Source of the DNA: an uncultured Oscillospiraceae bacterium
Lineage (GTDB): Bacteria > Bacillota > Clostridia > Oscillospirales > Oscillospiraceae
Length of the DNA: 64,000 nucleotides
NCBI GenBank assembly: GCA_947631395.1
Contig: CANRLF010000012.1
Span: 1 to 64,000 of the forward strand
Reading direction: 5' to 3'
Shown: positions 618 to 14,639 of the stretch, piece after piece
Position numbering within the stretch: the stretch's first letter is position 1
How the letters are laid out: each line of letters begins with the position of its first letter
Position numbers and translations under genes: made by a program
Notes under the pieces: generated by a model
Told to the model about the DNA's origin: nothing
The model's input: only the letters and a program-made list of their open reading frames with translations
The model's database searches: none

Positions 618-1190
618 ATGAAAAAGGGTATATATGTCTGTGCCGCATTGGTACTGGTACTGACGTTAGCACTGGCCGGGTGCGGACTGTTCTCCGGCGG
701 CAGCTCCGACAAGGGCGGCGGGAAGACCGACGCCATAAGCCTGCTTGACGGCCAGAGGACCTACAAGCTTCCCGACGTGGACTACGACACCCTGTATCTG
801 TGCCAGGTGGACGTAAATCCCGATGACGAGAACGCCCTCCTCAGCGAGTTTTTGGAGTTTGGTATTCAGAAGGAGTACCACCTCACCTACGCGAAGGACA
901 GCAAGGCCATCCGGCAGGACGACATCTACATCTGCGACACCGCCGAGAACGCCAAGGCCATGTACGACGCTTTCGTGGAAATGGCCGGTTCCGAAGAGAA
1001 CTTCACCCTTTACGAGGACGACCCCTCCATGATCGTTCTCGTCTTCGATCAGGAGATGGTGGAGGGCACCATCCTCCAGTTCGCCGGGTACGGCATCGGG
1101 CTTGACGCCGACGCCGACGCCGCCACCTACGCCCAGTTCGACGCGGATATATACAGCGGCTATCTCATCGACGTCACGGCCGCGGAGTAA
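618..1190 (+). CDS. Predicted lipoprotein, unknown function (190 aa)
   Basis: The start is the ATG at 618, because it follows an AGAGGGA ribosome site and opens directly into a lipoprotein signal peptide: positive MKK, a hydrophobic stretch, then lipobox LAGC with the lipidated cysteine at residue 22. A Gly/Ser/Lys-rich linker follows, then about 150 residues of acidic globular sequence without a family I recognise. It should sit on the outer face of the membrane. A consensus promoter precedes it and a strong terminator-like hairpin follows it. The ABC exporter genes start 65 bases later with no obvious promoter of their own, so this protein may be the first gene of the exporter transcript. 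A link to the exporter is inference from position only. Confidence 0.75.
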   Translation: MKKGIYVCAALVLVLTLALAGCGLFSGGSSDKGGGKTDAISLLDGQRTYKLPDVDYDTLYLCQVDVNPDDENALLSEFLEFGIQKEYHLTYAKDSKAIRQDDIYICDTAENAKAMYDAFVEMAGSEENFTLYEDDPSMIVLVFDQEMVEGTILQFAGYGIGLDADADAATYAQFDADIYSGYLIDVTAAE

Positions 1191-1206
1191 GCGTTCGTCT
1201 AAGCCA

Positions 1207-1234
1207 AAAGCGCCGCCTTCATACGCGGCGCTTT
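1207..1234 (+). terminator. Hairpin terminator/attenuator after lipoprotein
   Basis: A perfect 10-bp stem (1207-1216 with 1225-1234), whose 3' arm ends in TTT and is followed by CCTTTC. The next gene starts at 1256 with no room for a separate promoter downstream, so it may be a partial terminator that lowers exporter expression relative to the lipoprotein. Confidence 0.7.
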
Positions 1235-1255
1235 CCTTTCAGGGGGAAGCGAATT

Positions 1256-3010
1256 ATGAGAATAAAGAAAAGGGAGCGAAACCCGGAGGTACGTTGGAAA
1301 AGCGTCTTTCAGGTGGTCAAACGCTCACACATCCCGTGGCTCTGGGTGGCGCTGGCCTTCGGGGTGAACCTGATACAGAACGAGCTTCTCATCAGGATCC
1401 CCACCTCCACGGCATCGCTGCTTGGCGGGAGCCTTGAGGCCTCGGCCCTCCGGGACACCATCTTTTACTATGTGTCCTACGCGGTGGTGCTGACTGTCTG
1501 GAACCTGCTGTTTGCCCAGGCGTCGTGCCTGGCGGTGAAGCGGGCTCGCGACAACCTGTGGGGGAAGATGCTCCGGGTACATATGTCCTTCTACGACGGC
1601 AACGACCCGGCGGAGCTGATGAGCGCCGTTACCAGCGACATCTCCTACGGTATCGACCAGACCACCTATCTGATGATCTACCTGATCCCGGAGCTTTACT
1701 ATGTGTACCGGGCCACCAGGACCATCGGCAACTACCACTGGCTTCTGGTAGTGGGGATCGTGGCTTTTGTGCCCATCAAATACATCTACTCCGTTATCGT
1801 GGGTAAGATCTTCTACAAGGCGGAGGCCGGCATCTACGAGGAGATCGGCGGCCTCACCGGATACCTTGCCGAGCGGGTGCGGAACCTGCCCCTCATCAAG
1901 ACCTTCACCAACGAAAAGCGCGAGCGGGAGAACGGCCGGAGGACTGTGGACAAGCTGGTCCGGGCCAACATGAAGGAGGTCAAGGTGGGCGCCGCCTCCT
2001 CGGCCATGATCCAGATCATCGACTTTATCCAGCAGTTCCTGCTGATCGTGCTGGGCGTGGTGCTTCTCCAGCAGAAGAAGATCACCATGACCCAGTGGGT
2101 GGCGTTCTTCCTCTTTAGCCAGGAGCTGATCAACACCATGTCCCATGTGGTCAACGAGTGGCTGGCCATCAAGATGGTGAAGGCGGCCCTCTGCCGCGCG
2201 GCCAAGATCTACGACGCACCGGAGGAGGACCTGGAGGCCCCCGGCGACGAGCCCATCCCTGAGACGGGGCGGGACGTGGTCTTTGACTCCGTCACCTTCT
2301 CTTACGGCGACAAGCAGGCGCTGAAGGATGTCTCCTTCAAAGTGCCGGAGGGCCAGACCGTGGCCATCGTGGGCCTGTGCGGCAGCGGCAAGACCACGTC
2401 ACTGAACCTTTTGGAGCGTTTCTACCGCCCGGACGGCGGCCAGATCACCCTGGGCGGCGTGGACATCGGCAGAATGCCCCTGGACGCTTACCGGCGGTGC
2501 TTCTCCTACGTCCAGCAGCGGCCCGAGATCTTCAGCGGCACCGTGCGCGAGGCGCTGACTTATGGCGTGGGCCGGGAGGTCACTGACGAGGAGCTCATGG
2601 AGGCCGCCCGCGTCACGGGCATAGCCGACTACATCGAGAAACAGCCCCAGGGGCTGGATACGCAGATCGCGCCCTCCGGCGGTTCCCTGTCCGGCGGACA
2701 GGTCCAGCGGCTGGTGCTGGCACGGGAGTTTTTGCGGGGCGCGGACGTGCTTTTGTTGGACGAGCCCACCTCGGCCCTGGACGCCCAGACGGCCAGGGGA
2801 GTCCAGGACGCCGTGCTCACGACCTTCTCCGGCAAGACCATCATCATGGTCACTCACGATCTGAACCTCACCCGCAGTGTGGATAAGATCGTGGTCCTGG
2901 AGGACGGGGAGCTGGTGGGCCAGGGGACCTACGACAGCCTTATGGCCGCCTGCCCGCTGTTTGGCGAGATGGTGGCCGCACAGGCCAGAGAGAAGGAGGC
3001 GGAGGCATGA
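1256..3010 (+). CDS. ABC exporter half-transporter 1 (TMD-NBD, 584 aa)
   Basis: A fused ABC exporter subunit: an N-terminal six-helix membrane domain (about residues 20-310) and a C-terminal ATPase domain. Visible ATPase motifs are Walker A GLCGSGKTTS (about residue 373), Q-loop region YVQQRPEIF, signature LSGGQ (about 478), Walker B VLLLDEPTSALD, and the switch histidine in VTHD. The Walker A cysteine is unusual but the lysine and threonine are intact. It overlaps the next ABC gene by four bases, the usual layout of a heterodimeric exporter. The substrate cannot be read from sequence. The downstream chaperone, thioredoxin and FTR-like genes suggest a peptide or redox-sensitive cargo, which is inference. 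Ribosome site GGGGGAAG lies before the ATG. Confidence 0.9.
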   Translation: MRIKKRERNPEVRWKSVFQVVKRSHIPWLWVALAFGVNLIQNELLIRIPTSTASLLGGSLEASALRDTIFYYVSYAVVLTVWNLLFAQASCLAVKRARDNLWGKMLRVHMSFYDGNDPAELMSAVTSDISYGIDQTTYLMIYLIPELYYVYRATRTIGNYHWLLVVGIVAFVPIKYIYSVIVGKIFYKAEAGIYEEIGGLTGYLAERVRNLPLIKTFTNEKRERENGRRTVDKLVRANMKEVKVGAASSAMIQIIDFIQQFLLIVLGVVLLQQKKITMTQWVAFFLFSQELINTMSHVVNEWLAIKMVKAALCRAAKIYDAPEEDLEAPGDEPIPETGRDVVFDSVTFSYGDKQALKDVSFKVPEGQTVAIVGLCGSGKTTSLNLLERFYRPDGGQITLGGVDIGRMPLDAYRRCFSYVQQRPEIFSGTVREALTYGVGREVTDEELMEAARVTGIADYIEKQPQGLDTQIAPSGGSLSGGQVQRLVLAREFLRGADVLLLDEPTSALDAQTARGVQDAVLTTFSGKTIIMVTHDLNLTRSVDKIVVLEDGELVGQGTYDSLMAACPLFGEMVAAQAREKEAEA

Positions 3011-4716
3011 AGGCGATGAAACGCTACGTCAACATCTTCCGGGGCGTGAGACTGCCCTGGATCTCCATGCTTGTGCTCCTGATCGTGTCGGTGATCGAGG
3101 TGACCCTGGGACTTGCCAGCGTGGAGCTGACGGCGTCCATCATCGACGCCAGCCAGAGCACCATAGACGGGCAGAGGCTGGCCCGCTACGCGGTGAACCT
3201 GGCCCTCACCGTGGCCGTCACCGTGTTCGAGACGTATTATGGCGGCCTTGTGGATCAGAAGATCGGCGCGGGCGTACGCGTGAAGATCTGGGACAAGCTG
3301 ATGCGCCTGCCCCTGTGCTACTACGACACCGAGAGCGCCAACGACCTGGTGAGCCGTGTCACATCGGACCCCAGCTCCGCCAGCACGTACATCACCGTGG
3401 GCATCAGCTGCATCACCACGGTCTACGCCACAGTGACGGCGTTCACCCAGCTTTTCAAGTTCCACACCGGCCTGGCCACATGGTCGCTGCTGATCATCCC
3501 CGCCACCATCGGCATTGGCGCGATATACTCCATACTCTCCTACCACTCCTCCCTGCTGGGGACCAGGGCCTCCGCCAAGACCGTGGGCTACATGACCGAG
3601 CACGTACACAATCTGCGGCTCATCAGGGCCCTGGGCACTGAGGGGTACGAGAAGAACAAGTCCAGGGCCATCTTCAAGCGCCAATACTGGACCGACCTCT
3701 ACTCCCAGAGCACCGTCGGTTACATCGCCATCAGCATCCAGGTCCTTGGGTGCATGTCCCTGGCCATATCCTTTGTGGCCGGCGGCAAGATGGTGGCCGA
3801 CGGAACGTTGAGCGTGGGGACGCTTATTATCTTCTACGGCTTCTCGTCCATGGTGTCGATACACCTGTCTAACCTCTTCATGGCCTTCGGCTCCATTATC
3901 GGCGCCAACGGCACCCTGAAGAAGGTATCCCAGCTGCTGGAGCAGGCGGACGAGACCGGCGGCGGCCAGGCCGTTGACGGCGAGGAGGACATAGTTCTGG
4001 AGAACGTATCCTTCGCCTATAAAGACGTGCCGGTGCTGTCCGATATTTCCTGCCGCCTGCCCCGGGGCAAGGTCACGGCCATCGTAGGCACCAACGGCGC
4101 GGGTAAATCCACTGTACTGAAGCTGCTGGAGCGGATGTACAAGCCGGACGGCGGCCGCGTACTCTTTGGGGACCGGGATGTGGAGGACTACAGCCTGGAC
4201 TCCTGGCGGCGGGCGCTGGCCATCGTGGCCCAGGACACGCCCCTCATGTCCGGTACGGTGCGGGAGAACCTGACCTACGGCTTAGACCGGGAGATCGGCG
4301 AGGAGGAGCTTGAAAAGGCGGCAAGGCTTGCCAATGCCTACGACTTCATTATGGAGACTCCCGGCGGCTTCGACGCGGAGGTGGGCCCCGGCGGGAGCAA
4401 TTTCTCCGGCGGTCAGAGGCAGTGCCTGGCCATCGCCCGCGCGGTGCTACGTTCCCCCCGGTATCTCCTTTTGGACGAGGCCACCAGCAACCTGGACGCC
4501 AAGTGCGAGGATCAGGTATCCACCGCTCTCGACCACCTGATGGAGGGCCGTACCACCGTGATGATCGCCCACAGCTTCCGGGCCACCCTGGCCGCGGATC
4601 AGGTCATCGTCATGGACAACGGCCATATCGTGGGCACGGGTACGCCGGAGGAGCTGCTCCGGACCAACGCCTATTATCAGACCTTCGCCCGTCGCGGCGA
4701 AAAGGAGGCAGTATGA
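3007..4716 (+). CDS. ABC exporter half-transporter 2 (TMD-NBD, 569 aa)
   Basis: The partner subunit of the preceding gene, with the same order of membrane domain then ATPase. Motifs are Walker A GTNGAGKST (about residue 361), Q-loop region VAQDTPLMSGTV, signature FSGGQ (about 466), Walker B YLLLDEATSNLD and H-loop IAHS. Its start codon lies inside the last codons of the first ABC gene and its stop (TGA 4714-4716) overlaps the start of the chaperone-like gene, so the genes are translationally coupled. Both ATP sites look competent, with no missing catalytic glutamate of the sort seen in some asymmetric heterodimers. Multidrug, lipid or peptide export are all possible. Confidence 0.9.
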   Translation: MKAMKRYVNIFRGVRLPWISMLVLLIVSVIEVTLGLASVELTASIIDASQSTIDGQRLARYAVNLALTVAVTVFETYYGGLVDQKIGAGVRVKIWDKLMRLPLCYYDTESANDLVSRVTSDPSSASTYITVGISCITTVYATVTAFTQLFKFHTGLATWSLLIIPATIGIGAIYSILSYHSSLLGTRASAKTVGYMTEHVHNLRLIRALGTEGYEKNKSRAIFKRQYWTDLYSQSTVGYIAISIQVLGCMSLAISFVAGGKMVADGTLSVGTLIIFYGFSSMVSIHLSNLFMAFGSIIGANGTLKKVSQLLEQADETGGGQAVDGEEDIVLENVSFAYKDVPVLSDISCRLPRGKVTAIVGTNGAGKSTVLKLLERMYKPDGGRVLFGDRDVEDYSLDSWRRALAIVAQDTPLMSGTVRENLTYGLDREIGEEELEKAARLANAYDFIMETPGGFDAEVGPGGSNFSGGQRQCLAIARAVLRSPRYLLLDEATSNLDAKCEDQVSTALDHLMEGRTTVMIAHSFRATLAADQVIVMDNGHIVGTGTPEELLRTNAYYQTFARRGEKEAV

Positions 4717-5585
4717 TGAAAACAAAAGTGACAAAGCTCTATGACGTGGATCTCATCCCCACGCCGGAGGGCATCTCGGACTGGCATGTGGACGAAGCCA
4801 GTGTGGACGCTCTGCTGGAGACCCTGGCCGCCCAACGCTCCACGGAGGCTGAGGTCCGGGAGGTTCAGATGGGGGACACGGTATTCTGCGCCGCCGGCGG
4901 GAAATACGCCGGTCGGACCGTCCTCATCTATCCTGGCCGGAACATGCCCGGAGCGGAGGCGGCGGAGAAAGCCGTTCTCGGTTCCGCTCCCGGCGGCACG
5001 GTCAAGACGGAGCTCGGTGGCGCGCCCGCTGTCCTCACGGTGAAAAAGATCGTCAGCCGCGCTCCGGCCAAGATCGACGACGCGCTTATCCGGGACGAAA
5101 ACATCGACGGCGTGGACACCGTGGAGAAATACCGGGTGTACATCAAAGATAAGACCGAGGAGCAGAACCGCTCCTTCTCCGCCAAGCACCTGTCCGCAGC
5201 ACTCCGGGAGGAGTTGATCGCCAGAAGCGAATATGAGGTGGACGAGGCGGAGCAGGAGGCCTGGACGGACAACGCCGCCCAGGAGATGCTGAAAATGTAC
5301 GAGGCGGAGGGCATCGACCCCCACGTCCCCGAGGAGGGGACGGACTTCCTGACGGACGAGGAGGTAATGGAAAACTTCAAAAATCAGCTCCGCCCGCAAT
5401 TCCTTGCCTTGGCTGTGAGCCGTGCCTTCTGTGAGGAGCGCGGCGTCGTCTTCGGGGAGGAGGAGCGGAAGCTCTACGCCGATAACGGCTATACCGGCGA
5501 CGATGCGGAGGGGAGCTTTATGGACTCCAAAATGTGGGAGATCCTCTACAACATAGCCCTTAAGAGATTGGAGGAAGCGAAATGA
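4716..5585 (+). CDS. Trigger-factor-like chaperone lacking ribosome-binding domain (289 aa)
   Basis: The middle of the protein resembles the FKBP-type prolyl-isomerase part of trigger factor (GDTVFCAAGGKYAG... region), and the rest, rich in charged helices, resembles the trigger factor C-terminal chaperone domain. It is shorter than true trigger factor (about 430 residues) and lacks the N-terminal ribosome-docking module, so it is unlikely to be the housekeeping Tig. Two adjacent ATGs (4713, 4716) are possible starts. AAGGAGG at 4702-4708 is better spaced for the second. The stop overlaps the thioredoxin start. No signal peptide is seen, so it should act in the cytoplasm, perhaps keeping a client unfolded for the ABC exporter (inference). 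Confidence 0.75.
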   Translation: MKTKVTKLYDVDLIPTPEGISDWHVDEASVDALLETLAAQRSTEAEVREVQMGDTVFCAAGGKYAGRTVLIYPGRNMPGAEAAEKAVLGSAPGGTVKTELGGAPAVLTVKKIVSRAPAKIDDALIRDENIDGVDTVEKYRVYIKDKTEEQNRSFSAKHLSAALREELIARSEYEVDEAEQEAWTDNAAQEMLKMYEAEGIDPHVPEEGTDFLTDEEVMENFKNQLRPQFLALAVSRAFCEERGVVFGEEERKLYADNGYTGDDAEGSFMDSKMWEILYNIALKRLEEAK

Positions 5586-5896
5586 TCCAAGAGGCAACAG
5601 CCAAGACCTTTGACAGTCTCATCGACACAGAATACGCCGTGGTGGACTGCTACGGCGACTACTGCGGGGCCTGCGTCATGCTGGAGCCCGTCTATAAGGA
5701 GGCCGCCGCGGACCTGGCCGGTATCCGGTTTATTGAGATAAACATCACCCATGAGTGGGACATCGCCGAGCGGTTCGGCATCGACGCCATGCCCACCCTG
5801 CTCTTTTTCCGGGGCGGCAAGGAGGTACACCGCATCGAGGGGAGCATGGACCGGGAGGAGCTTAACCGGCAAATCGCGGTCATGCTCTATGAATAA
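5582..5896 (+). CDS. Thioredoxin-family protein with CGAC active site (104 aa)
   Basis: A single-domain thioredoxin fold of normal length. The active site reads YGDYCGAC (Cys28, Cys31) instead of the classical WCGPC, and the cis-proline is present in AMPT (Pro71). The changed dipeptide between the cysteines alters redox potential in characterised thioredoxins, so it may serve a dedicated partner rather than general reduction. Its ATG overlaps the stop of the trigger-factor-like gene, and the FTR-like gene follows 12 bases after its own stop. The natural reading is that the FTR-like protein is its reductase or electron partner (inference). There is no signal peptide. Confidence 0.9.
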   Translation: MIQEATAKTFDSLIDTEYAVVDCYGDYCGACVMLEPVYKEAAADLAGIRFIEINITHEWDIAERFGIDAMPTLLFFRGGKEVHRIEGSMDREELNRQIAVMLYE

Positions 5897-5908
5897 GGAG
5901 GCGCGGCC

Positions 5909-6109
5909 ATGGGAAGGATTCGTGTGAATGAGGACCCGGAGGTAGTGCGCAAGATCCGTGAGGGCCTGAAGCGCACCGGCGGCTACTGCCCCTGCCGCAC
6001 TGAGCGCAAACCCGAATATAAGTGCGTCTGCCAGGAGTTCAAGGCCCAGTGCGCCGACCCGGATTTTGAGGGCTACTGCCACTGCAAGCTCTACTACAAG
6101 GAAAAGTGA
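5909..6109 (+). CDS. Ferredoxin:thioredoxin reductase catalytic-chain-like protein (66 aa)
   Basis: A short cysteine-rich protein whose motifs match the catalytic (beta) chain of ferredoxin:thioredoxin reductase: YCPCR (Cys27, Cys29), CVC (Cys39, Cys41), an extra Cys48, and CHCKLYY (Cys57, Cys59). In the family such cysteines hold a 4Fe-4S cluster next to a reactive disulfide that reduces thioredoxin using ferredoxin electrons. Here the second CxC pair is closer to the first than in plant and cyanobacterial enzymes, and the protein is much shorter. A perfect AAGGAGG (5895-5901) precedes the ATG. It lies directly after a thioredoxin gene, supporting a ferredoxin to FTR to Trx relay without NADPH. 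Confidence 0.8.
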   Translation: MGRIRVNEDPEVVRKIREGLKRTGGYCPCRTERKPEYKCVCQEFKAQCADPDFEGYCHCKLYYKEK

Positions 6110-6264: not shown

Positions 6265-6441
6265 CTACTCCGCCCCGATCCTCTCCTCCAGCGCCATCAT
6301 CGCCAGGCAAAACCGCTCCCACTGTGTCAATGCTGTCAGTGACGGGTCGCCGTCACGGATGCGCAGGGTGCGGCGGATCTCCTTTGGGATGACCACCCGC
6401 CCCAGGTCGTCTATGCGCCTGACAATACCGGTTGCCTTCAT
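6265..6441 (-). CDS. Short AbrB/SpoVT-type DNA-binding protein (58 aa)
   Basis: The first 35 residues (MKATGIVRRIDDLGRVVIPK..., then IRRTLRIRDGDP) are a classic AbrB/SpoVT swapped-hairpin DNA-binding domain. In typical relatives the GDP motif is followed by LEIF and further beta strands. Here it is followed by an unrelated hydrophobic tail (SLTALTQW... to GAE) and a stop. It may be a genuine short regulator or a gene truncated by deletion or frameshift. AGGAGG is eight bases before the ATG, and a 7-bp inverted repeat (6452-6458 with 6471-6477) overlaps that ribosome site, possibly an autoregulatory operator or hairpin. Confidence 0.7.
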   Translation of the reverse strand: MKATGIVRRIDDLGRVVIPKEIRRTLRIRDGDPSLTALTQWERFCLAMMALEERIGAE

Positions 6442-6568: not shown

Positions 6569-7507
6569 TTATTGGCCAAAATTTAGGGAACCCCCGTCCT
6601 CTCTCCGTCCCCGGGAGAAAATATTTACAGAAAATTTCAAAAAAGCACAAAAACAGCATTGTAATTCCCGGCCGCGTGTGCTAAAATGTGTATATCTGTA
6701 TATAGTACCCGCCGGTCCCACCGGCACCACCAGGCGGGAGACGTAGTTCTCTGAGTCGATGTCCCTCCCGGTGTAGGGGGCGACAAGGCCCAGGACGCGG
6801 ACGTAGCCCGCGGGCTTCAAGCCGCGCTCCCGGATCTCCCGGCCGAACTCGTTGAAGGCGTAGGCTCTGCGGGAGTAGTTGCCGTAGCCCAGACAGGAGA
6901 AGCCCCGGCAGGCGGGGATGGTCACGGCCTCCTCCGGCGCCTCGTCCGGCTCCAGCGGGACGCAGCAGATGAAGTCCATCTCCTTATCCTCAAAGGCGCT
7001 GTCCAGATAATCGGTGCGCTTGTTGATGATAAACAGCGGCTCGGACTTAAGCAGCCGATAGCCCTTCTCCACCGCCTCATGGTAGAGATCGTACATGGCC
7101 CAATAGCGATCCTCCACCGTCGTCCCCTGATATTCCCGGCAGTAGCAGACGTACTCCGGCAGATCCACGAACTCAAAGCTCAGATGGTCCTTTTTCTCCA
7201 CCCGGAGCTTTACCTCCTCATAGGCCCGCTTGAACAGTAAAAACCGTTCCTCCATCCGCTCCAGGAGCTCCCGCGACGTCCCGTTGGCGCGGTAGTAGAG
7301 GGCGGCGTCGTCATAGGTCATGCCCATTTGCAAAAAGGACAGGATCTGCATGATCTGGCTTACGTTGTGGTTGTCATACCAGCGGTAGCCCGTCTCGCTG
7401 TCCACCTTGGCTGGGGTGAGCAGTCCGCGGTTTTCAAGCCGCATGAGAGTGGACCGGGACACCCCGCAGCTCTTACTTACCTGATTAATTGAGAAAAATT
7501 CGTCCAT
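6569..7507 (-). CDS. MerR-family regulator with effector-binding domain (312 aa)
   Basis: Residues 1-70 form a MerR winged helix (FFSINQVSKSCGVSRSTLMR, then GYRWYD), followed by a coiled dimerisation helix and a GyrI-like ligand-binding domain (from about residue 100), the architecture of drug- or metabolite-sensing BmrR/TipA-type activators. The ATG at 7507 is chosen because GGGAGG lies eight bases upstream. A longer frame has no ribosome site. The last 45 or so residues, encoded by AT-rich sequence, look unlike the family and may be readthrough past a lost stop. The divergent promoter at 7525-7555 has the 19-bp spacer used by MerR activators, so the giant surface protein at 7701 is the likely target. 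Confidence 0.85.
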   Translation of the reverse strand: MDEFFSINQVSKSCGVSRSTLMRLENRGLLTPAKVDSETGYRWYDNHNVSQIMQILSFLQMGMTYDDAALYYRANGTSRELLERMEERFLLFKRAYEEVKLRVEKKDHLSFEFVDLPEYVCYCREYQGTTVEDRYWAMYDLYHEAVEKGYRLLKSEPLFIINKRTDYLDSAFEDKEMDFICCVPLEPDEAPEEAVTIPACRGFSCLGYGNYSRRAYAFNEFGREIRERGLKPAGYVRVLGLVAPYTGRDIDSENYVSRLVVPVGPAGTIYRYTHFSTRGRELQCCFCAFLKFSVNIFSRGRREDGGSLNFGQ

Positions 7508-7524
7508 TTTTTTGGCCTCCCCTA

Positions 7525-7555
7525 TTGACTTGTTCATGGGTGAACATGGTATTAT
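7525..7555 (+). promoter_or_regulatory. MerR-type promoter with 19-bp spacer and operator
   Basis: TTGACT (7525-7530) and TATTAT (7550-7555) are 19 bases apart, two more than optimal, and an inverted repeat GTTCA-TGGG-TGAAC (7532-7545) fills the spacer. MerR regulators activate such promoters by twisting the DNA. It points toward the giant SLH protein and overlaps the divergent regulator's upstream region. Confidence 0.7.
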
Positions 7556-7608
7556 TATGATGATAAATGTAAAAAACTGATTTGTCAAGCGTTTCTTGAA
7601 ATGAAAGC

Positions 7609-7666
7609 TTTATCATGGCTGGGCCGGCCCAGCCATGTCCGTGGGGTTCCCCACGGACATGATAAA
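7609..7666. repeat. Cloverleaf-like nested inverted repeats in leader
   Basis: An outer 9-bp stem (TTTATCATG 7609-7617, CATGATAAA 7658-7666) encloses two hairpins: a 24-bp perfect palindrome at 7614-7637 and a 10-bp stem with a TT loop at 7637-7658. In RNA or extruded DNA this would give a three-way junction. It lies in the predicted 5' leader of the giant surface protein, about 35 bases before its start. Confidence 0.75.
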
Positions 7667-7700
7667 CTCTAACTACCGATGTGAAAGCGAGGATGGAATG

Positions 7701-10700
7701 ATGAAAAAACGGATCATAAGCGTATTCCTCTCTGCCGTGCTGGTCTTTGCCCTGCTGCCCGTAGCGGCGTGGGCGGCGGACGTCCCGTTCGAAAACAACG
7801 GCGGCAACGGCACAGCGGGCAACCCGTATCAAATCAACGACCTGGACCAGTTCGAGGCGTTCCGGAATTATATCAACGCGGATGCTGACGGCGGCAAAGA
7901 CGAGTATTTTAAGCTGACGGCACCTATTGATATGTCTGCAAATTACAGCGCGGGAAGCAACACATCATGGACACCGATTGGAACGGAAGACAATCCATTT
8001 TCAGGCACATTTGACGGCGGCGACTTCGAGATAAGCGGACTTTACATAAACACTGAGGATTACTACACAGGTCTGTTTGGGTATTCCACCGGCACGATCA
8101 AAAATCTCACCGTTTCGGGCAGTGTCACCGGCGACACATATACGGGCGGCATTGTGGGAGAAAACGAAGGCGGCAGCGTCGAAAATTGCTGTAACAAAAA
8201 CGCGGTAAATGGCGTTTCCTCTACAAGCGGCATTGCGGGATACAACAAAGGCGGCAGCATTGAAAATTGCTATAATACGGGAGCAGTAACGGGCACTGGC
8301 AATTGCATAGGCGGCATCGCGGGAAACAACAGCGGGAGCGTTAAGAATTGCTATAACACGGGAACGGTGAGCGGCGCCGGTTATGTAGGCGGCATTGTGG
8401 GAGAAAACAGCATCGCCGTCATTGTGGGCGACAGCGGCAACATTAAAAGCTGCTATAACACGGGAACGGTGAGCAGCACAAACGCCACCTATATCGGCGG
8501 CATTGTGGGATCCACCGGAGGCAACGTTAAATATTGCTACTACCTTGATACCTGCGGCGCGGGAGGAAGATTTGGCGGCACGTCAAAAACCACCGACAAA
8601 TTCGCCTCCGGCGAGGTGGCGTGGCTTTTGCAAAGCAAGCAGGATACGCCCGATCAGCAGGTGTGGGGACAGAAGCTCAGCGACGAGGCGGACGAGTATC
8701 CCGTGCTGACGACCGATGCAACTAAAAAGGTGCTGAAGGTTACGTTCGCGACGCAGGAGAACAAAAATTATGATGTTAAGTACACAAATCTAAATAAAAC
8801 GGTAACGCTGCCGGAAAATCCCTCAAAGACTAATTATACGTTTGAAAAGTGGGCAAAGACGCAGGAGGCGGACGGTGAAAAGTTTGACGAGGAAACCCTC
8901 GTTACCGAGGATATGACCGTCTACGCCGTCGGACGCGACCATTTCGGCGGCGACGAGGATGAAATTCTACTGAACGGAACTTACGGCTACGCGGATGCGA
9001 TTACGGTCAATTTGGACGAGCATATGAAGTATGCGAACACACGTATTTCGTCCGAGGGTAAGTTTACATACGAAATAATCGACAAGGGCAACACAAATGC
9101 AAGTATAATAAGTGATAATACGCTGTCGGTTCCGACAGGGCTTAACGCGGATGATTATACGATTACTGTTAAGGCAACAGAAAAAACGCCGCAGTATTCG
9201 CTTATGAGCGTGGAGAGCTACGATACGGTAGTTGTGACGCTCACGGTCAAGGTGAGCATAGCGAAAGCCACGGCCACCGTGACCGCGCCCACGGCAAATA
9301 CGACGCTGACCTACACCGGCACGGCGCAGGAGCTGATCGATGCGGGAAGCGTTGAAAGTGTTTCAAGTGTTTCGGGCTGCGGGACAATGCAGTACAGCCT
9401 TGATGGGGACACCTATTCCGCCGACATCCCCACAGGAGAGGGCGCGAAAACGTACACCGTCTACTGGAAGGTGGACGGTGCGGACAAGACGAATTACAAT
9501 TATGTCGGCGAGACCAGTGGTTGGGTTACCGCCACCATCGGCAAAGCCGCCTCGGAGGTGACGGTCACCGCCAGCGAGAATCCCACCTACGGCAACGAGA
9601 TCACGCTGACGGCGACGGTTGAATCCGGAGCTATCGCCGCAACAAACCTCAGTGGTACGGTACAGTTTAAGGTTGGCGGCGAAAACTTCGGTGATCCAGT
9701 AAGTGTGGATATGTCCACCGGCACGGCGACGCTGACGATTGGTACTAACGACAGCGAATTGCAGAAAAAGCTGTTCGGCGATGACGGCACGACCAGCGTC
9801 ACGGCGATGTATGAGGGGAATGACAATATTGCCGAGAGCGAAGAAAGTGTAGAAAAGAGTGTGACGGTCGGTCAGAAAGAACTGACGTTCAGCTTTACGG
9901 CAGACGAAAAGACTTACGATGGTGGGACCGATGTTAAAGGTACGTTGACCAGAACGACTGACCTCGTGAGCGGGGACAGCGACGTTCAGGCCAATTATAC
10001 CGCAACCGCTTCCAGCAAAGACGTGAACGATTCGGTTGATGTCACGGTGAACGTCGCGCTGAGCGGAAGCGATGCGAAGTATTATACCGCTAAAGACCCA
10101 ACTGACGTTAAGGTGAAAATCGTCAAGGCGGAGAATACCTCAGTCACCGTGGCGATAGGAAAAACTGATCTGATATATAGCGGCACGGATCAGGAGCTTA
10201 TTAAGACTGAGGGAAGCTCTGAAAATGGTACGATGAAGTACTTCGTGGGCAGCAAAGCTCCGGAAACCGGCCCTGACGATTGGAAAGACGCCGCCGATAT
10301 TAAAGGTAAGGACGCGGGGACGTACACGATCTGGTACTATGTCGTGGGCGACGGGAACCACAACGACACCACGCCCGCCAGCATAACCGTTGAGATTGCG
10401 CAGAAAGAAGTTACGCTGACGTGGACGGGCCACGAGAGCCTGACCTATGATGGCTCGGCGCACACCATCAGTGCTGCCGTTAACAACAAGGAAGGCGACG
10501 ACGAGGTCAATGTGACGGTTGCGGTGACAGCCAACGGCGGCGAGACCGGGGCGAGTGGCGCTACTGCGACGAACGCCGGGAGCTACACCGCTGAAGCCAC
10601 CGGGCTCACCGGCACCGCGGCGGGGAACTATAAGCTGCCCGATAACCCCACGCAGGCTTTCACCATCGGCAAGGCCACGGTGACCTTCTCGATTGACGGA

Positions 10701-13700
10701 ACAACAACATTTACATACAGTACGGCGCTTCATACGGTTAATGTTAAAGAGGGTGAGGACGACACCAAACTCCCAAGCGCCGGAAATCCCTATTCCGTCA
10801 TATACGCCGACAATGACGAAGAAACAAGAACCGGCGAGGCCACTGACGGTAAAACCGACGTTGGGACTTACGGCGTTTGGGTTAAGTTGTCAACAGACGC
10901 CTATAAAAATTACATGTTCGCGGGCGACAAGCAGGAGCTCAAGGTCGGCACCATGGAGATTACGAAGGCCGAGCTGACCCTTGATGTCACCGGCTCCGCG
11001 ATTACCTACGGCGATACGCTGAGCGAGAGCGAACTCACCGGCACAGCCACGATTGGCGATAGCACCGAAATCAACGGCACTTGGGCGTGGGAAACCGGGA
11101 GCGTGTATCCCACTGTGTCCGGTAGCAACAACTACAAGGTGACATTCACGCCGAACGAGGAGTATCAGGGCAACTTCACCGCCGAAAGCCTGAGCACGAC
11201 GATCACAATTACCGTCAAGCCCTATGAACTGACGCCGCAGGTGGAGTCCGTGGATGGTAAGGTCTATGACGGGAATGTAACTGCTCAAAATGGCAAGCTG
11301 AAATTCAAGGAAGATTTGAATAAAGAGCCGTTCAGCGGGAATTTGCCCAGCGCGACAGGTAACTTTGAGTTTACCGACAAGAACGTGGGGACAAGTAAGC
11401 ACGTCAAAGTGACAGAAATCACACTCAATAACTCCACGGATTATACCCTTAAAGAGAGTTCGATCTCCGATGCCGAGACAAGCGCGGAGATCACGGCCAA
11501 GTTGGTGACGCTGACGTGGAAAAACGACACCGGCCTGACCTATGACGGTACGGCAAAGAACGTCACTGCTGAGATTTCCGGGGGCAAGGTGGAAACCGAC
11601 GACCTCTCCGTAACAGTAGCGGGCGGCAACCAGATCAACGCGAACAAAACCGGAGAGCGGTACACCGCCACGGCGACCCTCACCGGTGATGATGCCAAGA
11701 ACTACTCGCTGAGCAATGCCACACAGAACTACACCATCTCCCCAGCCGAGGTGAGCTTTACAATCGACAAGGAGGTCAAGGCGGATTGGGAAGCGAAGGG
11801 AGAAACAAACGACAACCCCAATCCGGATGGCTACAAGCTCAGCGGTAGCGGCACGGCTTACGCGCTCAGCATGACCTACGACAGCTACGGGCACACGGCC
11901 AACGTGGCGCCGGGGGAGGATCAGATCATCACGGCCGCGGCCGCCAACGGCTACACTGTGACCTACAAGAAGGGCGACGCCGAGTCATCTGAAGTCCGGG
12001 ACGCCGGGAAGTATGAAATTTACGTGACTATCAACCCTGTGACGGATGAAGTATACAACTTCAAGTTTGCCGATCAGGGTGAGGACGTCCACGAGCTGCA
12101 GATCGGCACGATTGAGATAACGCCCTATGAGGTCACGGTGATTTGGACGCACTTGAGCTACGTCTACCACGCGCACACCATGCACCCCGACATTCGGGTG
12201 CAGAACCCCTTTAAGAACGATAACAACCAGTTACTTCCGGGGCAAGGGCTGCCTTCCGGTTTCAACGTCGAACATCCTGAAAACTACACCGGGGAGTATC
12301 TGGTGGCCTTCGCCGCCACCGACGGCTCCGATGTGAAGGAGTACACCGTGACGGCTGGGCTCTACGGCCAGAAAGCCGCGAACTACACCGTGAAGAACCC
12401 TGAGGCGACGGTGACTATCGTCCCCGCGCCAGTGACATTCACCGTGAGCGATAACGTGTGGGATCTCACGGGAGCACACCCCTCCACTGTTACGCTGAGC
12501 CCCGTCTGGGGCGTGGTGTCCACGGAGCCGGATAAGGACGTGAGCGCCAACCACCAGTATCCCGATCCGGGGACGGCGGTCAGATCGGAGCTTAATACGA
12601 AGATCGCCTACAAAATGGACGGCAAGGAGATAACCGCCCCCGACGTGCCCACCGAGGCCGGAACATATGAGGTCTGGGTGGAGATTGGCAACACGAACTT
12701 CCGCCACTCCGCCACCTCCGACGGCGCGTCCCACAAGGTGGGCGAGCTGGTACTCACCAACGATCTCGCCAGCGTCAAGACCTACAAAGTCACCTTTGAG
12801 ACCGGTTATGAGGGCGGTGAGGCCCCAGAGACCATGGAAAATCTCCTTGAGGGCCAGATGGTGATCCTCCCCGCGGGGCTGACCCGCGAGGGTTACCTCT
12901 TCCAGGGTTGGAGCCACGGCGGCATCACATACAGGCCCAATGAGGAGTTCCCCATGCCGGCCTCCGACGTGACCTTCAAGGCCGAGTGGCTGGCCATGGA
13001 GGAGACTCGCTCGGTCGGCGGCACGGTAGTGCAGGAGGTGGAGGGCGGCGACCCCAAGCCGCTGCTCGGCGCCACCGTGACCCTGAAGCAGGGCGATAAC
13101 GAGGCCGGCGAGGCGATCACCGACGCCGACGGTAATTTCTTGTTTGAACACCTGACGCCAGGTATCTACAACCTGGAGGTTCGGTACTTTAACGGGAGCT
13201 CCACGGTGGTCAAGACCTTCCGGGTGGACGTGGAAAAGGACAGCTTAGACGGTGAGACCTATATCATGCCCGACGGGGCGCTGAATACCGTGGTGGAGGC
13301 TGATGTCACCGCCGTGGTGGATATGCAGGACATTGTGAAAGAGCCCGCCGACAGCGCCGATGACGGGATATACACTAAAGATGACGACGATATTGTCAAG
13401 GACGGCGGTACGGTGGAGTTCAAGATGACCGTCAAGGGCGCGGAACTTGGGCCTGACCAGATCGAGGAGCTTCCCGTGTCGGAGGAGCAGATCGGCATGG
13501 TGCTGGATCTGGAGCTGACAAAGACGGTGACAAGTAGTAGCGGCACCAATACAACAGAGATTGATGACTCCAAGGTTCCCATCACGACTGTGATTCACCT
13601 GCCTGCGGAGATACAGGGCAAGAGCGGATACACGGTGTATCGCTTCCACAATGTTGGGGGCGAGGAGGAGATGCAGACAATCACTACCTCCAGGAACGCG

Positions 13701-14639
13701 AGCGGCGAGTATCTTCAGGTTATCAGGGATGGAACGGCTATTGAGATCCACGCCACGCTCTATTCCGTTTATGTGCTGACGTGGTATCAACGCTCCGGCG
13801 GTGGCGGCGTGGTCGCCTATCCTGTGACTCTTCCGGAGGACCTGGAGCACGGCGACGTGAGTGTGAATTACCCCAACGCCGCCCCGGGCGTCAACGTGAC
13901 GCTGACGGTGACGCCCGACGAAGGCTATGAGCTTGACGAGCTCACTGTCACCGACAGGAACGGCAACATCATCCCTGTCACCGACAACGGCGACGGGACA
14001 TACAGCTTCACAATGCCGAGCAGCGGAGTGGTCGTAAGTACCGAATTTAAGCTCACCGTCTGCGACGGCGGCGACGACTGCCCCAGCAGAGCCTTCCAGG
14101 ATCTTGACGTGACGGCCTGGTATCACGAGTACACCGACTACGTTATCGAAACAAAGCTGATGCAGGGCAGCGGCGGGCTCTTCAAGCCCAATGGCACACT
14201 GACCCGCGCCGAGATGGTCACCGTTTTGTGGAACATGAACGGCAGAGGCGTTGTGAATTATCTTATGACCTACGGTGACGTCAGCGAGGGGGACTGGTAC
14301 GCTGAGGCCATCCGGTGGGCCACCAGCGAGGGCGTGGTTGACGGCTATGACAACGGCAACTTCGGCCCCAACGACAAGATAACCCGCGAGCAGATGGCGA
14401 AGATGCTGTATAATTACGAGAAGAAGTACGGCGACGGCGGCTTCACGGGCGAGTGGATGTTCCCGCTTCCCTTTGCCGACACCGCCAAGATAAACGACTG
14501 GGCCTATGAGGCGGTAGCGTGGTGCTACATGAACGGCGTAATAAACGGCAAGGACGGCAACGTCTTTGACCCCGCCGGAAACGCCCTCCGTTGCGAGCTG
14601 GCGAAGGCCCTGACCGTGTACAACCAGATCGACGACTAA
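7701..14639 (+). CDS. Giant SLH-anchored surface protein with GLUG and MBG/YDG repeats (2312 aa)
   Basis: Exported and wall-associated. In order: signal peptide ending near AAWA (residues 1-25); GLUG-type repeats (about 125-290, units such as VKNCYNTGTVSG and GGIVGE); an InlB-type repeat (about 335-390); many MBG/YDG and bacterial Ig-like modules (about 500-1690, recurring LTYDG, KVYDG, PTYGNE cores); a second InlB-type repeat; a carboxypeptidase-regulatory-like domain (about 1770-1840); a GGGG-linked repeat domain; and three SLH domains at the C terminus (about 2130-2310) that bind pyruvylated wall polymer. Start: the second of two adjacent ATGs (7698, 7701) is better spaced from GAGGA. Its promoter is of MerR type. 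Probably an adhesin or scaffold. The ligand is unknown. Confidence 0.9.
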   Translation: MKKRIISVFLSAVLVFALLPVAAWAADVPFENNGGNGTAGNPYQINDLDQFEAFRNYINADADGGKDEYFKLTAPIDMSANYSAGSNTSWTPIGTEDNPFSGTFDGGDFEISGLYINTEDYYTGLFGYSTGTIKNLTVSGSVTGDTYTGGIVGENEGGSVENCCNKNAVNGVSSTSGIAGYNKGGSIENCYNTGAVTGTGNCIGGIAGNNSGSVKNCYNTGTVSGAGYVGGIVGENSIAVIVGDSGNIKSCYNTGTVSSTNATYIGGIVGSTGGNVKYCYYLDTCGAGGRFGGTSKTTDKFASGEVAWLLQSKQDTPDQQVWGQKLSDEADEYPVLTTDATKKVLKVTFATQENKNYDVKYTNLNKTVTLPENPSKTNYTFEKWAKTQEADGEKFDEETLVTEDMTVYAVGRDHFGGDEDEILLNGTYGYADAITVNLDEHMKYANTRISSEGKFTYEIIDKGNTNASIISDNTLSVPTGLNADDYTITVKATEKTPQYSLMSVESYDTVVVTLTVKVSIAKATATVTAPTANTTLTYTGTAQELIDAGSVESVSSVSGCGTMQYSLDGDTYSADIPTGEGAKTYTVYWKVDGADKTNYNYVGETSGWVTATIGKAASEVTVTASENPTYGNEITLTATVESGAIAATNLSGTVQFKVGGENFGDPVSVDMSTGTATLTIGTNDSELQKKLFGDDGTTSVTAMYEGNDNIAESEESVEKSVTVGQKELTFSFTADEKTYDGGTDVKGTLTRTTDLVSGDSDVQANYTATASSKDVNDSVDVTVNVALSGSDAKYYTAKDPTDVKVKIVKAENTSVTVAIGKTDLIYSGTDQELIKTEGSSENGTMKYFVGSKAPETGPDDWKDAADIKGKDAGTYTIWYYVVGDGNHNDTTPASITVEIAQKEVTLTWTGHESLTYDGSAHTISAAVNNKEGDDEVNVTVAVTANGGETGASGATATNAGSYTAEATGLTGTAAGNYKLPDNPTQAFTIGKATVTFSIDGTTTFTYSTALHTVNVKEGEDDTKLPSAGNPYSVIYADNDEETRTGEATDGKTDVGTYGVWVKLSTDAYKNYMFAGDKQELKVGTMEITKAELTLDVTGSAITYGDTLSESELTGTATIGDSTEINGTWAWETGSVYPTVSGSNNYKVTFTPNEEYQGNFTAESLSTTITITVKPYELTPQVESVDGKVYDGNVTAQNGKLKFKEDLNKEPFSGNLPSATGNFEFTDKNVGTSKHVKVTEITLNNSTDYTLKESSISDAETSAEITAKLVTLTWKNDTGLTYDGTAKNVTAEISGGKVETDDLSVTVAGGNQINANKTGERYTATATLTGDDAKNYSLSNATQNYTISPAEVSFTIDKEVKADWEAKGETNDNPNPDGYKLSGSGTAYALSMTYDSYGHTANVAPGEDQIITAAAANGYTVTYKKGDAESSEVRDAGKYEIYVTINPVTDEVYNFKFADQGEDVHELQIGTIEITPYEVTVIWTHLSYVYHAHTMHPDIRVQNPFKNDNNQLLPGQGLPSGFNVEHPENYTGEYLVAFAATDGSDVKEYTVTAGLYGQKAANYTVKNPEATVTIVPAPVTFTVSDNVWDLTGAHPSTVTLSPVWGVVSTEPDKDVSANHQYPDPGTAVRSELNTKIAYKMDGKEITAPDVPTEAGTYEVWVEIGNTNFRHSATSDGASHKVGELVLTNDLASVKTYKVTFETGYEGGEAPETMENLLEGQMVILPAGLTREGYLFQGWSHGGITYRPNEEFPMPASDVTFKAEWLAMEETRSVGGTVVQEVEGGDPKPLLGATVTLKQGDNEAGEAITDADGNFLFEHLTPGIYNLEVRYFNGSSTVVKTFRVDVEKDSLDGETYIMPDGALNTVVEADVTAVVDMQDIVKEPADSADDGIYTKDDDDIVKDGGTVEFKMTVKGAELGPDQIEELPVSEEQIGMVLDLELTKTVTSSSGTNTTEIDDSKVPITTVIHLPAEIQGKSGYTVYRFHNVGGEEEMQTITTSRNASGEYLQVIRDGTAIEIHATLYSVYVLTWYQRSGGGGVVAYPVTLPEDLEHGDVSVNYPNAAPGVNVTLTVTPDEGYELDELTVTDRNGNIIPVTDNGDGTYSFTMPSSGVVVSTEFKLTVCDGGDDCPSRAFQDLDVTAWYHEYTDYVIETKLMQGSGGLFKPNGTLTRAEMVTVLWNMNGRGVVNYLMTYGDVSEGDWYAEAIRWATSEGVVDGYDNGNFGPNDKITREQMAKMLYNYEKKYGDGGFTGEWMFPLPFADTAKINDWAYEAVAWCYMNGVINGKDGNVFDPAGNALRCELAKALTVYNQIDD

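Follow-up and report, generated by a model that had tools for sequence, protein, structure and literature searches.

Extra copies of trigger factor without the ribosome-binding domain are known, and the Firmicutes genomes that hold several copies are mostly those of Clostridia (PMC11559001, available part of the text). Clostridia also have thioredoxin reductase-like enzymes without NADPH motifs, which are thought to use ferredoxin (PMC10880999, PMC12796991, available parts), and the trxA2-trxB4 locus of C. difficile, likened here to the cassette by its published description, contains a two-component system as well as an ABC transporter (PMC10880999, available part). Other systems to be considered are the ferredoxin:disulfide reductases (FDR) of M. 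acetivorans (4tpu) and of a Desulfotalea Grx/FDR fusion (7pwe), the thiol exporter CydDC and cysteine fermentation by CyuPA. Here we describe a gene cassette at positions 618 to 6109 of the window, that is, of the whole stretch of 64,000 nucleotides that was analysed, which belongs to an uncultured Oscillospiraceae bacterium (assembly GCA_947631395.1, contig CANRLF010000012.1) and begins at base 1 of the contig (G000:C12). The common core of this cassette is an ABC pair, a ribosome-free trigger factor and a thioredoxin, often with a reductase that is not NADPH-dependent in appearance.

The trigger-factor-like protein of the window shares with the paralogues of PMC11559001 (available part) a PPIase-like and a C-terminal domain, the absence of the ribosome-binding domain and a full tig in the same genome; it differs in being fixed beside an ABC pair and a thioredoxin. 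The available main text of that paper does not contain the phrases 'thioredoxin' or 'ABC transporter', and ABC-type transporters are named there just as commonly kept duplicates. With the FDRs, the small protein at the end of the cassette has in common the predicted fold, the order CxC...CxC...CxC and the association with a redoxin, whereas it has 66 amino acids (aa), no fused domain and a spacing of X9/X15 instead of the X14/X12 of 7pwe. CydDC is likewise a heterodimeric ABC exporter tied to thiol chemistry, but its models' cut-offs are not reached by the ABC proteins of the window, and the cassette has a dedicated chaperone and a reductase. The clostridial systems with FFTR join a thioredoxin to a reductase that lacks NAD(P)H motifs, with two-component genes and a transporter close by, and recall the form found in genome G741; the window has instead a predicted Fe-S protein of the FDR type, and 'trigger factor' is absent from the available text of PMC10880999. 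The CyuPA system (PMC9040844, available part) is similar in that a CyuA-type desulfidase lies near the transporter in part of the cassette lineages, and different in that the cassette has an ABC pair in place of CyuP, plus a chaperone, a thioredoxin and a peptidase. The gene combination of the cassette did not appear among the titles and abstract beginnings listed from the open-access literature, two of these lists covering 10 of 349 and 8 of 22 entries.

Results

The six genes of the cassette lie on the forward strand, and we have very little doubt about their anatomy and conservation as given here. A lipoprotein gene (618..1190, 190 aa, lipobox LAGC recognized by eye, no known family) precedes two ABCB-type half transporters: ABC1 (1256..3010, 584 aa), with a membrane and an ATPase domain, Walker A GLCGSGKTT and signature LSGGQ, and ABC2 (3007..4716, 569 aa), with Walker A GTNGAGKST and signature FSGGQ. 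They are followed by the trigger-factor-like holdase (4713..5585, 290 aa), which has a short FKBP-like domain and C-terminal arms and no ribosome-binding domain, by the thioredoxin (5582..5896, 104 aa), with the active site YCGAC and no tryptophan before the motif, and by the FDR-like protein (5909..6109, 66 aa), which reads CPC-X9-CVC-X15-CHC. As the initial annotation of this DNA had it, start and stop codons overlap from ABC1 to the thioredoxin, by 4 bases at every junction, and the FDR-like gene comes 12 bases on; in all nine related loci the overlap between trigger factor and thioredoxin is also 4 bases and the gap before the last gene is 11-14 bases. The NG86 dN/dS values against five relatives (L074, L075, L077-L079) were 0-0.08 for the FDR-like gene, 0.09-0.15 for the thioredoxin, 0.08-0.25 for ABC1, 0.13-0.24 for ABC2, 0.23-0.33 for the trigger-factor-like gene and 0.16-0.31 for the lipoprotein; all six genes are under purifying selection and are not chance frames.

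A scan of 84,980 species genomes with the alignment of the trigger-factor-like protein, in which two short peptide patterns were used such that distant cassettes may escape, gave 12 loci, and 10 of them (L072-L081) share the arrangement of the window. Eight (L072-L079) are from Lapin, presumably rabbit gut, with trigger factor identities of 68-97%; L080, from iMGMC (presumably mouse gut) and labelled Lachnospiraceae, has 57%; and L081, in another genus, shows 28% for the lipoprotein, 48 and 45% for the ABC proteins, 38% for the trigger factor, 47% for the thioredoxin and 74% for the FDR-like protein. Three of the ten (L072, L073, L076) end inside ABC1 at the end of the contig, and the other seven (L074, L075, L077-L081) hold all six genes, with the lipoprotein before ABC1 in each, which bears out the suggestion that the lipoprotein at 618 is part of the cassette; a lipoprotein stands at the same place in L146, a locus with the same gene order in another family of the order. 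Among the genomes of the order, G1212 has this gene order, and in G1294 it is cut by the contig.

Rearranged forms were also found. L082 and L083, the latter from the same assembly as L081, have the order TF1, thioredoxin, FDR-like, TF2, ABC, ABC (TF, trigger-factor-like); G592 and G619 have ABC, ABC, TF, thioredoxin, lipoprotein; G741 has a thioredoxin reductase-like protein, a membrane protein (by eye), TF, thioredoxin, ABC, ABC, a small secreted-type protein and a response regulator, with which G706 agrees from TF to the regulator; and G769 has TF, thioredoxin, CyuA, M16C, lipoprotein, ABC, ABC, a small protein and a response regulator. A search for the gene order in other Oscillospiraceae and other Clostridia, as the initial annotation had proposed, thus showed it kept at 28-74% identity in another genus, kept in another family, and present in rearranged forms, and it is not limited to close strains. 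A lipoprotein was seen in 8 of the 11 cassette lineages; the secreted-type protein of G741 and G706 has no clear lipobox, and none was seen by eye in L082 and L083. Two similar lipoprotein genes lie in tandem behind the cassette thioredoxin at L115:9519-10969 (+), and a second, diverged ABC-TF-thioredoxin-lipoprotein cassette, cut by the contig, faces the window-type cassette from the opposite strand at L076:4716-7085 (-).

The cassette is rare and patchy, yet diverged, as the low counts of the trigger factor searches indicate. With the single protein, 3 of 400 genomes of the family matched, the window's own included. With the profile, 218 of 394 genomes of the order matched at E<=1e-12 and 7 of 394 at cassette grade (E<=2e-27); the remaining matches, at 1e-21 or weaker, were taken for trigger factors of the ordinary or of some other kind after an inspection of six. 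In the family of G592 there were 8 of 197 at E<=1e-24, five of these at E<=6.1e-66. At the level of the class, 13 of 391 genomes matched at E<=1e-24, two being cassettes of the window's own genus (E below 1e-85). A wide spread outside the order was considered and rejected: the other 11 matches, at E 7.4e-28 or weaker and in frames of 435-492 aa, are read as ordinary trigger factors, although not checked singly.

No linked gene for a small precursor peptide, which the initial annotation had proposed to look for, was found: a conserved sequence was sought outside the block in nine related loci and none appeared as a feature of the cassette, a search that an unlinked cargo, or one on a missing part of a contig, would escape. 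Beyond the block from the lipoprotein to the FDR-like gene the flanks are mostly not conserved: the upstream flank matches two of the nine loci over 51-90 bases, and the downstream flank matches two others, the nearest relatives L072 and L073, alone. In the window, the downstream side carries a 58-aa AbrB-type protein (6265-6441, -) that matches just the first 32 of the 180 positions of SpoVT, a MerR-family regulator with a long C-terminal part (6569-7588, -) and a repetitive surface-type protein of 2334 aa (7635-14639, +), whose C-terminus resembles S-layer homology repeats by eye.

The trigger-factor-like protein matched TIGR00115 with E=2.4e-12 but with 46.4 of the 180.2 bits of the cut-off, and it aligned to profile positions 121-349 of 410 alone. 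The part of trigger factor that its AlphaFold2 model (pLDDT 93) covers begins at residue ~106-111 and ends at ~405-415, and so the N-domain is absent, whereas the PPIase-like and C-terminal chaperone domains are present, in agreement with the initial description of trigger factor domains that lack the ribosome-docking module. The ribosome-binding motif GxRxG is missing from the first 100 residues in 18 of 19 such proteins; the one match, GKRPG near residue 84 of L071 TF1, lies within the PPIase-like part. In a tree of 16 of the 19 cassette proteins and 14 of 31 canonical tig proteins, where the missing N-domain stands as gaps in the cassette rows, the cassette proteins form one clade against the 14 canonical ones (support 100/100), and a separate full-length tig is present in the window's genome. 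Cys59 of the window protein is common to 13 of the 18 aligned relatives (14 of 19 counting the window).

Other proteins of this kind were noticed. A second, strongly diverged trigger-factor-like protein lies within the operon at L071:10577-11506 and L082:11566-12516, such that there may be two different holdases per transporter in these loci. Trigger-factor-like proteins with a lipoprotein-type signal at the start (by eye) occur in L119 (G128), L125 (G107) and L147 (G1203), and are apparently a separate, extracytoplasmic kind of paralogue. A weak match (25%, E=6e-06) is located at L197:494-1246 (+), upstream of the M16C gene of G393.

The 66-aa protein is predicted to have the catalytic fold of ferredoxin:disulfide or ferredoxin-thioredoxin reductases (FTR), as its AlphaFold2 model (pLDDT 94.6) has 4tpu and 7pwe, both FDRs, as the only credible Foldseek matches; a profile search of the PDB sequences with its family gave two matches, with 7pwe first (E=0.081). 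Six cysteines (C27, C29, C39, C41, C57 and C59) are invariant in the 24 aligned FTR-like proteins, which include that of the window. By itself the window protein belongs to no Pfam or NCBIfam family (best Pfam match DUF2695, E 0.14), and PF02943 (FeThRed_B) does not match it at E<=1 nor anything in its own genome at E<=10; among the 24, however, PF02943 is matched, weakly to moderately, by 21 at E<=1 (best 7.7e-07), and DUF2695 by 17 under the same limit (best 0.0029). The plant and cyanobacterial FTR has the cysteine spacing CPC-X16-CPC-X8-CHC, which the window protein does not share; by the plant pattern, four of its cysteines would serve a cluster and two a disulfide. The earlier identification as an FTR catalytic-chain homologue is thus right as to the type of fold and the six invariant cysteines, and the name 'ferredoxin-thioredoxin reductase' is too narrow because the credible fold matches are FDRs alone and the spacing differs.

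The thioredoxin of the window matches PF00085 with 78.5 bits and is below the equivalog cut-off of TIGR01068 (74.4 vs 96.8 bits), with YCGAC instead of WCGPC; C28, C31 and P71 are invariant in 12 of 12 aligned proteins. It had been described as an atypical CGAC thioredoxin, which is true of the window and not a constant of the cassette, where CGPC, CGSC and CVPC occur too. FTR-like proteins are commoner than the cassette (35 of 149 relatives), and many of the 29 loci outside it have a thioredoxin gene next to the FTR-like one in the same orientation: 12 were recognized through their likeness to the window thioredoxin, and at least five more in the lists of open reading frames (L037, L042, L043, L053, L062). 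The pair therefore appears to be a wider module contained in the cassette. In the tree, 8 of 9 cassette-linked FTR-like proteins group in a clade of their own (100/99), separate from the 20 stand-alone proteins, which implies that the gene was inherited with the cassette; this tree leaves out the stand-alone copy of G592 (L222), includes as Lapin-type copies those of the window, L077 and L079, and has a bootstrap that had not settled.

Two stand-alone FTR-like genes have particular surroundings. In L050 (4872-5090, -), a 72-aa FTR-like gene lies in a phage-like region whose neighbours are read by eye as anaerobic ribonucleotide reductase, activase and dUTPase, possibly a phage-borne supply of reductant for the class III enzyme; phrog_38239 is matched by all 24 FTR-like proteins. 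In L037, where the FTR gene occupies 9258-9455 of the reverse strand, FTR and thioredoxin come directly after genes recognized by eye as those of a membrane-anchored protein and of a membrane protein like CcdA, which suggests a further link of the pair to thiol chemistry outside the cell.

A reductase as a constant part of the cassette is ruled out by G592, G741 and G769. In G741 (L116), a thioredoxin reductase-like protein two genes upstream of the trigger factor keeps CATC and is without GGGDxA and HRRxxxR, the NADPH motifs, for which the one usable yardstick, an ordinary enzyme of G769 (L208), carries both; it thus has what defines an FFTR by sequence, namely likeness to thioredoxin reductase, CxxC and no NAD(P)H motifs. 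The genomes of G741 and G769 gave no FTR-like match and have thioredoxin reductases above the curated cut-off; in G592 and G619 an FTR-like gene is present and no thioredoxin reductase match exceeds 62 bits; and G1212 (366 bits) and the window's genome (330 bits, slightly below the cut-off) have a thioredoxin reductase besides the FTR-like protein of the cassette. Judging by motifs, a different reductase, likewise without an NADPH site, fills the place in G741, which would be the strongest argument, though an indirect one, for a relay driven by ferredoxin.

Both ABC proteins have ABC_membrane and ABC_tran as their sole Pfam domains above cut-off, and no N-terminal C39 peptidase domain was found by Pfam in either. 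Neither reaches the NCBIfam cut-offs of CydD and CydC, ABC1 having 239.9 of 435 bits (TIGR02857) and 213 of 329.05 (TIGR02868), and ABC2 having 189.2 and 179.2 bits. The listed PDB relatives of both include the yeast exporter of a-factor, a polypeptide. The VIA lists for both models added no further family, absence from them being no evidence. First and second ABC genes show matching main subclades in a tree made by a quick method with one background row, the motif filter having removed the second ABC genes of both L082 and L083 as well as further background loci; the tree does not prove that the cassette ABC genes are one clade.

Around some cassettes, Pfam identified a LytTR response regulator, a GHKL kinase, an M16C/PreP peptidase and SDH_alpha (serine dehydratase alpha chain; no match in NCBIfam), which from its motif and length we take to be a probable CyuA-type cysteine desulfidase. 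This extension, and the FTR-thioredoxin pair outside the transporter, were two features missing from the initial annotation. The regulator was present in 6, the kinase in 4, the peptidase in 4 and the desulfidase in 5 of 11 cassette lineages (~317 kb), and none of the four was present at 28 control loci that had a stand-alone FTR gene at their centre (340 kb). L145, L082 and L118 supplied the queries; when their three lineages are set aside, 3, 2, 2 and 2 of 8 remain. The lineages are our own grouping, in which L081 and L083 are of the same assembly, G592 and G619 of one genus, the second cassette of G028 goes with the window's genus and five of the eight Lapin loci were used for that genus.

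The peptidase gene adjoins the desulfidase gene in six cassette genomes (G1212, G1294, G741, G706, G769 and G619), and neither M16C nor the regulator or kinase was found within 1.5 kb at any of 27 CyuA loci of G592's family outside the cassette genomes. Of the 100 genomes sampled from that family, 7 carry M16C, including three of the four cassette genomes in the sample. No CyuA was seen within 1.5 kb of M16C in L203, L204, L206 and L207 of the same family, nor in seven loci on the window's side (L192-L197, L201), some flanks being cut in both sets. In the window's genome both genes are present on other contigs (C3 and C8). At L082:16143-16406 (+), a TSCPD-domain protein (TIGR03905) separates the ABC genes from those of the two-component system.

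Discussion

The joint inheritance of these genes suggests, as cargo of the pump, a protein or peptide with cysteines that is held reduced and unfolded. The presence of a holdase and of a disulfide reductase at the cytosolic face points to a substrate that has to be unfolded and reduced, namely a cysteine-containing polypeptide, as do the peptidase and desulfidase of the extended versions. As the best explanation, tentative and quite possibly wrong, we propose a dedicated ABC transporter cassette, equipped with a chaperone and a redox relay, for such a polypeptide. A heterodimeric ABCB-type transporter would be served by a thioredoxin and a cytosolic holdase of its own, the latter a paralogue of trigger factor that no longer binds ribosomes; electrons would pass from ferredoxin to the 66-aa Fe-S reductase and on to the CGxC thioredoxin, which would hold the polypeptide's cysteines, and possibly Cys59 of the holdase as well, in the reduced state. 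The holdase's task would be to keep the chain unfolded where ABC1/ABC2 opens to the cytosol; the ATPase would drive its passage and the lipoprotein would work at the outer face. In the extended versions, the GHKL/LytTR pair would sense a signal, and the PreP-like peptidase and the desulfidase would dispose of the peptide and its cysteine. We infer the ferredoxin donor, the Fe-S cluster, the thioredoxin as acceptor, the substrate, the direction and the contacts between the parts; export is assumed since the listed solved relatives are ABCB exporters, that of a-factor among them. From the earlier overall reading of a ferredoxin-driven thiol system, the gene order, the trigger factor without docking domain, the FTR/FDR fold and the lipoprotein have held; a linked precursor gene was not found, the FTR name is too narrow and CGAC is not constant across cassettes.

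Several observations weigh against this proposal. The cassettes of G592, with its FTR on another contig, and of G769 have no reductase inside, and so the reductase is not obligatory; the FTR-like gene near the cassette of G619 falls outside the cassette clade, with no resolved place among the stand-alone copies, and its linkage looks separate. The Foldseek E values of the 66-aa model are 0.02-0.05, none reaching 0.001. Cys59 is absent in 5 of the 19 trigger-factor-like proteins (type C and the second trigger factor of type B), and the tree permits a single gain, such that the idea of Cys59 following the reductase in several independent events had to be dropped and is a lead at most. None of the four genes of the extension lies near those operons of the window's genus that were examined, and each is missing from 5-7 of the 11 lineages; no cargo gene is visible, and the listed PDB relatives of the ABC proteins are mostly exporters of multiple drugs, bile salts and lipids. 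Part of the combination is also not new, given the published C. difficile trxA2-trxB4 locus (PMC10880999).

If the ABC pair exported cysteine or another low-molecular-weight thiol in the manner of CydDC, thioredoxin and FDR would reduce it, CyuA would degrade the excess and the trigger-factor-like protein would aid the assembly of the transporter. The thioredoxin in every cassette form, the desulfidase linked in 5 of 11 lineages and the CydD and CydC models among the best 25 NCBIfam matches of both ABC proteins agree with this; it is nonetheless unlikely, as the curated cut-offs are far off, the other 6 of the 11 lineages showed no CyuA close to their cassettes, and a small thiol needs neither a fast-evolving holdase nor a peptidase. 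The most interesting alternative is import by an exporter-fold pair, which would explain the extended cluster better. The lipoprotein would capture disulfide-rich peptides, the ABC pair import them, thioredoxin and FDR open their disulfides, the trigger-factor-like protein hold the chain, the PreP-like peptidase cut it and CyuA ferment the cysteine. Peptidase, desulfidase and sensor then fall into one path, M16C stands beside CyuA in six cassette genomes against none of the 27 other CyuA loci of G592's family, and E. coli couples CyuA with the importer CyuP for cysteine fermentation (PMC9040844, available part). Uptake is still unlikely, somewhat more so than thiol export. The lipoproteins match no substrate-binding family, and the examined operons of the window's genus have none of the extended genes nearby. 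ABCB-type transporters are, moreover, mostly exporters.

A stress-protection operon, in which chaperone, thioredoxin and reductase share no substrate and serve only to mend what oxygen stress damages in transporter or cell, would be in keeping with clostridial thioredoxin systems, which are often dedicated to stress; we consider it quite improbable, because the trigger-factor-like proteins are a cassette-only clade in our tree and the combination survives rearrangement and deep divergence. Least credible, and to a marked degree, is an exporter of bacteriocins or of ribosomally synthesized and post-translationally modified peptides with a linked precursor: LytTR/GHKL regulators do lie near some cassettes and both ABC proteins match peptide-exporter models, below the cut-offs, but neither has the C39 domain and, save in the nearest relatives, there is no conserved flank to hold a precursor. 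Anti-phage defence was also considered and rejected, PADLOC having matched the two ABC proteins alone and none of the other four.

The proposed polypeptide transporter could also be extended to a ferredoxin-powered, redox-gated transport and disposal of polypeptides, made of a ribosome-free trigger factor, a private FDR-thioredoxin pair and an ABCB heterodimer, with sensor, PreP-like peptidase and desulfidase in the full version. This is speculative and rather improbable; if true, a gut anaerobe could dismantle disulfide-rich peptides of its host or of competitors. The ribosome-free trigger factor family is in any case found in a constant gene neighbourhood, next to the genes of an ABC transporter and of a relay for the reduction of disulfides, so that its function can be tested, and if the relay is real, ferredoxin electrons would serve the membrane transport of a thiol-containing substrate.

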